The position numbers and the translations under genes were made by a program. From the NCBI RefSeq assembly GCF_004803465.1, contig NZ_SRSF01000003.1, positions 62,001 through 126,000 of the forward strand: 64,000 bases of DNA. Reading direction: 5' to 3'. Each line of letters starts with the position of its first letter. The first letter of the stretch is position 1. Below are positions 44,646-45,796 of this stretch, piece after piece. The DNA comes from Neolewinella litorea. Its GTDB lineage: Bacteria; Bacteroidota; Bacteroidia; Chitinophagales; Saprospiraceae. The notes below the pieces were generated by a model, which was not told where the DNA came from, made no database searches, and saw nothing but the letters and a program-made list of their open reading frames with translations.

Positions 44646-44677
44646 TTGTATAGTAAGCCCAATTGATTGCATCTTTG
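44646..44677 (+). promoter_or_regulatory. Promoter-like pair upstream of the tRNA-like genes
   Basis: TTG (44646-44648) is separated by 21 nt from CATCTTTG (44670-44677), one base from TAnnTTTG. Transcription would start close to 44684, about 30 nt before the first tRNA-like RNA. Confidence 0.5.
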
Positions 44678-44714: not shown

Positions 44715-44868
44715 TGTAAGGTGATGAAATTGGCAGCCATGCCCGCTTGTCTCGCGGGTGGGGAGGTCGGGATAAACCCTTTTTCAGTGCTCCGTAAGAG
44801 CGTGGCTCCCCGGAGCACTGAATCGGGCTAACCGCCCCGTGCAGGTTCGACTCCTGCCCTTACAGCCA
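44715..44868 (+). ncRNA. tRNA-like RNA 1 with an 82-nt variable arm, GUC triplet
   Basis: A cloverleaf can be drawn with every standard arm: acceptor TGTAAGG/CCTTACA (7 bp), a 3-bp D stem with an AATTGGCAG loop like Leu tRNAs, anticodon stem CCCGC/GCGGG with loop TTGTCTC (triplet GTC at 44749-44751), and a T arm GCAGG-TTCGACT-CCTGC. Then comes G at the discriminator and an encoded CCA (44866-44868). Between the anticodon and T arms lies an 82-nt variable region instead of the usual 4-24 nt. It folds as GGGG/CCCC plus GGT/ACC, then CCC/GGG, a perfect 12-bp helix (44783-44794 with 44811-44822) and a GAGC/GCTC tip. U at position 37 is unusual. Discriminator G plus a long arm is a serine-type feature. 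No known family was recognised. Confidence 0.75.
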
Positions 44869-44915
44869 CCGGGCGCAGCAGATCAGGTCAAGTAGCTTTT
44901 CTACTGCGTCAATTT

Positions 44916-45067
44916 TGTAGGGTGATGAAATTGGCAGCCATGCCCGCTTGTCTCGCGGGTGGGGAGGCCGGGATAAACCACCGTTCAGTGCTCCGCGTGA
45001 GCGCCGCTCTCCGGAGCGTTGAATCGTGGCTAACCGCCCCGTGCAGGTTCGACTCCTGCCCCTACAG
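44916..45067 (+). ncRNA. tRNA-like RNA 2 with an 83-nt variable arm, GUC triplet
   Basis: A second copy 47 nt after the first. D arm, anticodon arm (GTC at 44950-44952), basal variable helix and T arm are identical, while variable positions change in pairs. The acceptor is TGTAGGG/CCCTACA (fifth pair A-T becomes G-C), the inner helix CCAC/GTGG replaces CCC/GGG, and the 12-bp helix (44984-44995 with 45012-45023) keeps pairing through two G-U pairs. Unlike copy 1, the three bases after the discriminator G are CTA, not CCA. The covariation shows that the fold is under selection. Confidence 0.75.
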
Positions 45068-45142: not shown

Positions 45143-45796
45143 TTGTTACTCCTTGACCGCCTGTTCTCCCTTGCCCGGCTCCGCTGGCGCCGGCTCGTGG
45201 GGCCGCTGCCCCCGACGGTGGTCAATACCGGTGGGGCCGATCGCGTCTTTCAGGTACTGGATCTGCTTTTTGTCTTTGACCTCTACGAGGCGTTGACCAA
45301 CTGGCTTACCCCGGGCTTGCGCCGTCTGTCCACCCGGGAAATAAGGCTGCTGAGGCCCATCTTCGGGGAATCCGTGCCTTACCAGCGGATCCGGATTGAC
45401 GAGCGGGCGCACCTCGGCCCGCGCCGCTACCGCTTTCTGTACGTAAGCTTTCATACGATCAACGGTTGGGGCCCCTGTTCCGATCCCACCCTGGTACACG
45501 AGGTGGTGCACGTCTGGCAGTACGTTCATTTCGGTGCCATCTACATTCCCCGGGCACTGGCCGCGCAACGTACCGCCGCGGGCTACGACTACGGTGGACC
45601 TAGCGGATTGCAGGCTGCCCGCTCCCTGGAAGACTTCAACTACGAGCAGATGGCGGATGTCATCGAAGACGCCTTCCGACTGGCGAATGGCTACCCCGCG
45701 CAGTGGATCGGAGGCCGAACCGCGGAGGCTTTACCGAACTATTATCGCTTTATGTACGATCTTAGGGCACGGGTACTACCCGCCGCCTATCGTTAG
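45143..45796 (+). CDS. HExxH putative metallopeptidase-like protein
   Basis: 217 residues from a TTG at 45143. PTLVHEVVHVWQYVHFGA carries HEVVH, the zinc-binding HExxH motif, followed by Trp-Gln as in DUF4157-like proteins. There is no signal peptide. The C-terminal half (EQMADVIEDAFRLANGYP) contains a Glu that could be the third ligand. Substrate unknown. It begins 73 nt after the second tRNA-like RNA, on the same strand. Confidence 0.7.
   Translation: MLLLDRLFSLARLRWRRLVGPLPPTVVNTGGADRVFQVLDLLFVFDLYEALTNWLTPGLRRLSTREIRLLRPIFGESVPYQRIRIDERAHLGPRRYRFLYVSFHTINGWGPCSDPTLVHEVVHVWQYVHFGAIYIPRALAAQRTAAGYDYGGPSGLQAARSLEDFNYEQMADVIEDAFRLANGYPAQWIGGRTAEALPNYYRFMYDLRARVLPAAYR

Follow-up and report, generated by a model that had tools for sequence, protein, structure and literature searches.

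We detected two tandem tRNA-like RNAs, each with a large structured variable region, in the window, that is, the whole stretch of 64,000 nucleotides from Neolewinella litorea that was analysed. They belong to a large, covarying RNA family that is unmatched in Rfam and missed by ARAGORN. Based on the conserved positions of this family, its linkage to an AsnC-type regulator and its co-occurrence with AsnC and GatB, we propose that these tRNA-Leu-like RNAs are probably non-decoding carriers, dedicated to RNA-dependent asparagine synthesis under the control of AsnC. The features of the RNAs in the window are as follows:

44670..44677, forward strand: weak and tentative promoter-element match CATCTTTG upstream of copy 1 (7/8 match to TANNTTTG)
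44715..44868, forward strand: tRNA-like RNA copy 1, with G73 at 44865 and an encoded CCA at 44866-44868; 143.9 bits with covariance model R1
44715..44721, forward strand: 5' strand of the acceptor of copy 1 (TGTAAGG), with U1 and G2 opposite A72 and C71 (44864, 44863)
44747..44753, forward strand: anticodon loop of copy 1 (UUGUCUC), with GUC at 44749-44751
44759..44840, forward strand: variable region of copy 1 (82 nt), consisting of a GGGG/CCCC stem, a CGG/CCG stem, a GATAAA/CTAA internal loop and a distal helix; helices 4, 5 and 6 covary
44916..45067, forward strand: tRNA-like RNA copy 2, with G73 at 45067 followed by CTA, without an encoded CCA; 139.6 bits with covariance model R1
44948..44954, forward strand: anticodon loop of copy 2 (UUGUCUC)

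Up to G73, copy 1 measures 151 nt and copy 2 measures 152 nt, and the two are separated by 47 nt. Both have a 7-bp acceptor, a 3-bp D stem and a 5-bp anticodon stem, followed by a variable region (82-83 nt) and by a T arm of 5 bp (TTCGACT). The first-pass annotation of this DNA had described two such tandem RNAs, with their long variable arm and their spacing, and had assigned an encoded CCA to copy 1 only; re-reading of the coordinates confirmed both statements. The sequences bear out the paired changes that it listed between the copies (acceptor pair 5; CCC/GGG to CCAC/GTGG), and the GUC loop and U37 hold in both copies. ARAGORN called zero tRNAs over the window, and no Rfam family reached its gathering score in the window or in locus L001, the best sub-threshold match being tRNA-Sec with 18.2 bits against a cut-off of 47. 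A sigma-70 promoter and a terminator were both looked for in the window, and neither was found. An origin as T-box, group I intron or tmRNA was dropped, as it had no Rfam support, and a pairing between GUCUC of the loop and GGGAU in the internal loop was, by eye, not conserved. The window also encodes, at 45143-45796, a 217-aa protein with a HEVVHVWQ motif and without a Pfam match.

A blast search with copy 1 gave matches in 96 of the 199 genomes of the family and, in the genome of the window, matched these two copies only. We aligned 39 copies and wrote a structure of 37 pairs for them. Over these 37 pairs, 94.5% of the cells in the 39 aligned relatives are paired (shuffled mean 84.7), and 139 cells are changed on both sides (shuffled mean 39.7), a number reached by none of 500 shuffles, with slid versions of the structure giving 19-36. 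Each of the seven helices contains at least one pair changed on both sides. The selection on the fold that the first-pass annotation had argued from two copies is thus seen across the 39 relatives. That annotation had named a lack of homologues in related genomes, and arm pairing confined to the two copies, as findings that would speak against it; genomes of the family, the order and the phylum all give matches, and helices 4, 5 and 6 covary in the aligned relatives. Across the family, the long insert takes no single fixed form: its elements are a variable stem, a 3-bp stem that covaries, an internal loop of the conserved RAYAAA/CTAA type and a variable helix. Both sides of this internal loop are present in 205 of the 269 distinct bacterial copies. 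Of the same 269 copies, 127 carry a GGGTTGACCAC-type motif, as do 22 of the 23 distinct viral copies; both copies of the window lack it.

In the phylum listing, covariance-model scores fall into two well separated classes, with true members at 84 bits or more and ordinary tRNA-Leu-sized matches at 60.6 bits or less; viral copies score as low as 73.1 bits. Taking a best E < 1e-20 (our own threshold) as presence, the RNA occurs in at least 171 of 298 order genomes and in at least 40 of 395 phylum genomes, 17 of the latter 40 being also in the order sample. These counts are lower bounds, since 7-9 candidates were scored per genome and contig ends truncate some arrays; the raw tallies of 264/298 and 364/395 also count ordinary tRNA-Leu. 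Carriers among the matches listed are Saprospiraceae, Chitinophagaceae, Cyclobacteriaceae and Dyadobacter. Complete copies are about 108 to 218 nt long and have a canonical cloverleaf, with a 7-bp acceptor, a D arm, a 5-bp anticodon arm, a 5-bp T arm with a TTCGANT loop and a 3' CCA, which is encoded in some copies only. Tandem arrays of four copies each occur, for example, in loci L066, L070 and L071. Besides, eleven blast matches on contigs C50 and C58 of genome G055 include several that are 5' or 3' halves of one copy, so that about six copies are present there. Our literature search covered open PubMed Central and found no report of such an RNA.

Positions 33-38 and 73 were counted over the 80 distinct copies in alignments A3 and A7, which came from model searches or from stretches around their matches; the set fetched by loop pattern was kept out of these counts because it is biased. 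U35, C36, C38 and G73 are each present in 80 of the 80 copies and G34 in 77. On the other hand, position 33 is U in 65 copies, C in 7, A in 7 and G in 1, and position 37 is U in 70, C in 6 and G in 4. Among 292 distinct copies, those with both letters have U1-A72 in 283 of 284 cases and G2-C71 in 284 of 284. The D loop after GG reads CAG[AC] in 268 of the 287 copies read, which places A, not U, at position 20a in our own numbering. As excerpted, PMC9976931 gives G73, G34, U35, C36 and C38 as strong aspartate determinants and G2-C71 as a minor one. The same excerpt states that U1-A72 confers amidation of Asp-tRNA-Asn, that G1-C72 and U20a of tRNA-Asp prevent amidation, and that G1-C72 is strictly conserved in bacterial tRNA-Asp and, in E. 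coli AspRS, helps to place the 3' end. Recognition of U1-A72 by bacterial GatCAB is also stated in the excerpt of PMC4206432.

The RNA thus carries the AspRS determinants, including G2-C71, with the exception of the G1-C72 element, and it carries the GatCAB determinant U1-A72 without either G1-C72 or, by our numbering, U20a. In the table of PMC9976931, as excerpted, U1-A72, G2-C71 and G73 are bacterial Gln determinants too; the loop of the RNA is not Gln-like. The canonical decoding combination of U33 with a purine at 37 is not maintained, position 33 being other than U in 15 of the 80 copies and position 37 a pyrimidine in 76. Considering the conserved determinants against the drift at positions 33 and 37, selection appears to keep the positions read by AspRS and GatCAB and to release those read by the ribosome. 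In its sequence, the RNA looks like a candidate substrate of AspRS and GatCAB and not like a decoder. Two findings point against the reading by AspRS, namely U1-A72 in place of G1-C72 and the loss of G34 in 3 of 80 copies.

The body of the RNA resembles tRNA-Leu of its own genome, and not tRNA-Asp or tRNA-Ser, and the junction of the variable arm is Leu-like. In the four own-genome tRNA-Leu that were read, G1 stands opposite C72 or U72 and position 73 is A; U1-A72 and G73 of the RNA therefore look derived. The genome has 38 tRNA matches, all typed directly or within neighbouring loci, and includes a normal tRNA-Asp(GUC). Its sole tRNA-Asn and its tRNA-Asp have G1-C72 and its tRNA-Gln has A1-U72; judging from these 1-72 pairs, U1-A72 would be offered to GatCAB by the tRNA-like RNA and not by the genome's own tRNA-Asn, tRNA-Asp or tRNA-Gln. 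A tRNA-Asn was sought in the other bacterial RNA loci, and none was found there. The first-pass annotation had likened the long arm and the discriminator to serine tRNAs and had suggested that Asp codons might be mischarged. The serine identity is not supported, as body and arm junction are Leu-like and the AspRS set is found in the loop and at the discriminator; the drift at positions 33 and 37 argues against decoding. A serine or allo-tRNA identity with recoding of Asp codons was accordingly rejected on geometry, identity set and drift: the RNA has 7/5 acceptor/T arms and a Leu-like junction instead of the 8/4 or 9/3 arms and Ser identity of allo-tRNAs. Among the several roles guessed at that stage, a non-ribosomal use of an amino acid agrees with our proposal; U1-A72, the AsnC linkage and the GatB co-occurrence had been missed.

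Gene neighbourhoods were read at 180 arrays, taking as many as four genes to either side (20 arrays from the window's family, 120 named loci and 40 from other families), a set that leaves out loci L003-L031, L082-L137 and the viral loci. At 104 of the 180 loci, a divergent upstream gene encodes an Lrp/AsnC protein of about 155 aa, which is the first gene in 103. This divergent AsnC is found at 0 of the 20 loci of the window's family, 70 of the 120 named loci and 34 of the 40 loci of other families. Over 103 loci, AsnC and RNA lie a median of 150 nt apart (112-263 nt, except for one value of -25). One representative regulator was compared within the Lrp/AsnC family and is closest to AsnC: it scores 156.9 bits with the AsnC model (below the cut-off of 227) and 65 with the next model, and its best match among solved structures is E. 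coli AsnC (E 9.7e-33). In the E. coli K-12 genome, 151 nt separate the divergently oriented asnC and asnA. AsnC activates asnA, and asparagine abolishes this activation, as stated in an excerpt of PMC4482635.

AsnC is present in 170 of 171 RNA-bearing order genomes versus 33 of 127 others (E < 1e-40, our own threshold), and in 40 of 40 RNA-bearing phylum genomes, 17 of them shared with the order sample, versus 7 of 355 others (E up to 1e-38). P values in this study ignore shared ancestry, which inflates all of them. AsnC without a detected RNA was found in 33 genomes. In 20 AsnC-only loci that were read, the RNA is cut by a contig end in 4 (in one within its first bases), 2 are too short, and the RNA is absent from the stretch read in 14. 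In the genome of the window, the AsnC gene lies elsewhere and not beside the RNA, and the AsnC regions of this genome and of G006 contain no RNA copy. The AsnC gene of the window's genome (L379 3146-3673) is co-directional with a leuS-like gene, which from its sequence we take to be leuS, with a small gene between them; the body of the RNA is tRNA-Leu-like.

The next most recurrent neighbour clusters occur at no more than 23 of the 180 loci and include no obvious tRNA-dependent transferase by reading. A TrmB-type tRNA methyltransferase (by reading) lies downstream at 15 of the 180 loci (cluster CL5, L213 and 14 others), and SufB- and SufC-like genes lie upstream of the RNA at 23 and 19 of them; both were taken as synteny. 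The protein neighbours in the window's family (C1, C2 and C4 in 5, 4 and 3 of 21 stretches, respectively) differ by genus and were judged syntenic only. Of 218 bacterial arrays, 156 have an exact TANNTTTG, which we take to be the Bacteroidota promoter element, in the 130 nt upstream, versus about 22 in base shuffles; of 29 viral copies, 3 have it upstream, versus 1.8 in shuffles. A T6 run lies in the 80 nt downstream for 121 of 217 bacterial arrays, versus about 23.

The genome of the window has AsnRS and GatB, and the one AspRS found is of the bacterial type. AsnA gave no match in it, and none of its proteins reaches the E. coli-type AsnB cut-off of 499 bits, with proteins of up to 217 bits existing. 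Enzymes were compared between 28 RNA-bearing and 28 RNA-less genomes, hand-picked across families. GatB, by which alone GatCAB was scored, is present in 28 of 28 RNA-bearing versus 11 of 28 RNA-less genomes (p 4e-7, shared ancestry ignored). E. coli-type AsnB above the cut-off is present in 0 of 28 versus 6 of 28, all six without GatB, and many RNA-bearing genomes have AsnB-like proteins below the cut-off. The RNA, AsnC and GatB are jointly absent from four genomes of the window's family (G041, G044, G040 and G007) and from two of family f20 (G230 and G273), and this co-absence in two families suggests that they were lost together more than once. GatCAB may serve tRNA-Gln as well.

AsnA exceeds the cut-off in 19 of the 298 order genomes, 6 of which have the RNA, that is, in 6 of 171 RNA-bearing versus 13 of 127 other genomes (p 0.03, shared ancestry ignored). 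The idea that AsnA and the RNA strictly replace each other was rejected, as the trend is weak and the RNA-less genomes G200, G240, G301 and G415 have AsnA not beside AsnC. Three RNA-bearing genomes (G285, G295 and G031) have no AsnA match and very weak AsnB-like matches. According to an excerpt of PMC4206432, tRNA-Asn has U1-A72 in the 18 genera that lack an Asn synthetase while having AsnRS, GlnRS and GatCAB, some Bacteroidetes being among these genera; as tRNA-Asn of the window's genome has G1-C72, the situation may be mixed across lineages.

Considering these results, we infer the following route. AspRS would read G34, U35, C36, C38 and G73 together with G2-C71 and aspartylate the RNA, and GatCAB would read U1-A72 and amidate Asp-RNA to Asn-RNA, from which asparagine would be released in free form for AsnRS and metabolism. 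The lost U33, the lost purine at position 37 and the large structured arm would keep Asp-RNA and Asn-RNA off the ribosome, and the variable arm may dock enzymes. An asparagine-sensing AsnC, divergent in many lineages and acting in trans in the genome of the window, would control the RNA, activating it under asparagine shortage in the manner of asnA. We lean towards the fuller reading that in Bacteroidota and phages a stand-alone, non-decoding Asp-to-Asn carrier replaces asparagine synthetase as the target of AsnC, with the arm acting both as an antideterminant for the ribosome and as a scaffold for AspRS and GatCAB.

The proposed route resembles the tRNA-Asn route of Deinococcus, Thermus and Bdellovibrio, which, as excerpted in PMC4206432, also loads Asp with AspRS, amidates at U1-A72 with GatCAB and exists beside AsnRS. 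The platform in that route is a decoding tRNA-Asn with a non-discriminating AspRS, whereas here it would be a separate, large-armed RNA whose C36 is of the Asp type and whose decoding positions are degenerate, the genome's own tRNA-Asn having G1-C72. The arrangement of E. coli asnC-asnA shares the divergent AsnC-type regulator about 150 nt away, and differs in that an RNA gene here takes the place of asnA. With allo-tRNAs and selC-type tRNAs the RNA shares a long variable arm and an unusual anticodon, but it has a 7/5 geometry, a Leu-type body and Asp/GatCAB determinants, and the insert is far longer in many copies. The cell-wall tRNA-Gly of Staphylococcus is a tRNA used outside translation, with reduced or no decoding and a dedicated metabolic reaction; its amino acid, enzymes and fold differ, and the carrier proposed here would serve amino-acid biosynthesis itself.

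The same determinants and the same AsnC evidence would also fit an aspartylated and amidated RNA that, as Asn-RNA or Asp-RNA, donates its amino acid to a specific product (a lipid, a peptide or the cell wall), or whose charging state is a regulatory read-out. The six RNA-bearing order genomes that also have AsnA show that supply is not the only conceivable need. We nevertheless give this explanation a small chance, as AsnC is the only widely recurrent neighbour (104/180), the others, at 23 loci or fewer, include no obvious tRNA-dependent transferase, and the divergence from AsnC mirrors asnC-asnA. That the RNA is a decoy or regulator, titrating AspRS, GatCAB or AsnC without turnover as an amino-acid carrier, we consider quite unlikely: arrays of four copies and the presence of the RNA on phage contigs would suit such a role, but the acceptor end is kept in copies with greatly differing arms, and a pure AspRS decoy would not need the GatB found in 28 of 28 genomes.

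That the RNA is a tRNA-Asp, ordinary or special, that decodes GAC, or an allo-tRNA that accepts serine and recodes Asp codons, appears very unlikely. The GUC triplet agrees with it, allo-tRNAs with GUC exist according to an excerpt of PMC7609411, and 14 of 29 viral stretches contain at least six ARAGORN tRNA genes. U33 is lost in 15 of 80 copies, however, and 37 is a pyrimidine in 76 of 80, and a normal tRNA-Asp(GUC) is present in the genome of the window, as is tRNA-Asp in three viral loci; the 7/5 geometry and the Leu-like arm junction do not fit either. Degenerate tRNA-Leu pseudogenes or a mobile tRNA-like repeat, which the Leu-like body and the tandem copies might suggest, are scarcely credible and already disfavoured in view of the paired changes in all seven helices, TANNTTTG upstream of 156 of 218 bacterial arrays, the conserved divergent AsnC and the co-occurrence with AsnC and GatB.

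If the asparagine-carrier reading is true, the RNA would have amino-acid biosynthesis as its only known job, being a tRNA that has left decoding and persists as a cofactor, in which natural selection has separated the determinants of charging from those of decoding. It would bear on the Bacteroidetes that, in the excerpt of PMC4206432, have AsnRS, GlnRS and GatCAB yet no asparagine synthetase, and it is directly testable.

The RNA is also carried by 29 viral contigs, as found by covariance-model matches, which suggests that phages may come with an asparagine-making RNA of their own. At least six ARAGORN tRNA genes accompany it in 14 of the 29 viral stretches, it adjoins tmRNA in two (L266 and L271), and tRNA-Asp is also present in the arrays of L264, L268 and L283. 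Phages with the RNA inside tRNA arrays might, speculatively, secure their asparagine supply or replace a destroyed host RNA. A search of phage and plasmid record collections with one viral copy gave no match. The viral stretches L266, L268, L283 and L284 contain at least 20 tRNA genes, and the copies in L261, L265, L268, L271, L272, L280 and L285 have, by eye, an extra hairpin-like insert in the D loop. Besides, the viral contigs contain a second kind of RNA, tRNA-Leu-ended and 120-148 nt long, with acceptor AGTCAGG/CCTGACT, A73 and a Leu-type D arm. It carries unrelated inserts at the place of the anticodon arm, occurs up to twice per stretch and is never called by ARAGORN. Its copies are as follows:

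L262 6143-6262 and 7683-7830: second viral RNA kind
L263 9980-10112: second viral RNA kind
L264 4907-5049: second viral RNA kind
L278 3170-3298: second viral RNA kind
L279 5065-5185 and 5270-5412: second viral RNA kind
L282 9201-9320: second viral RNA kind
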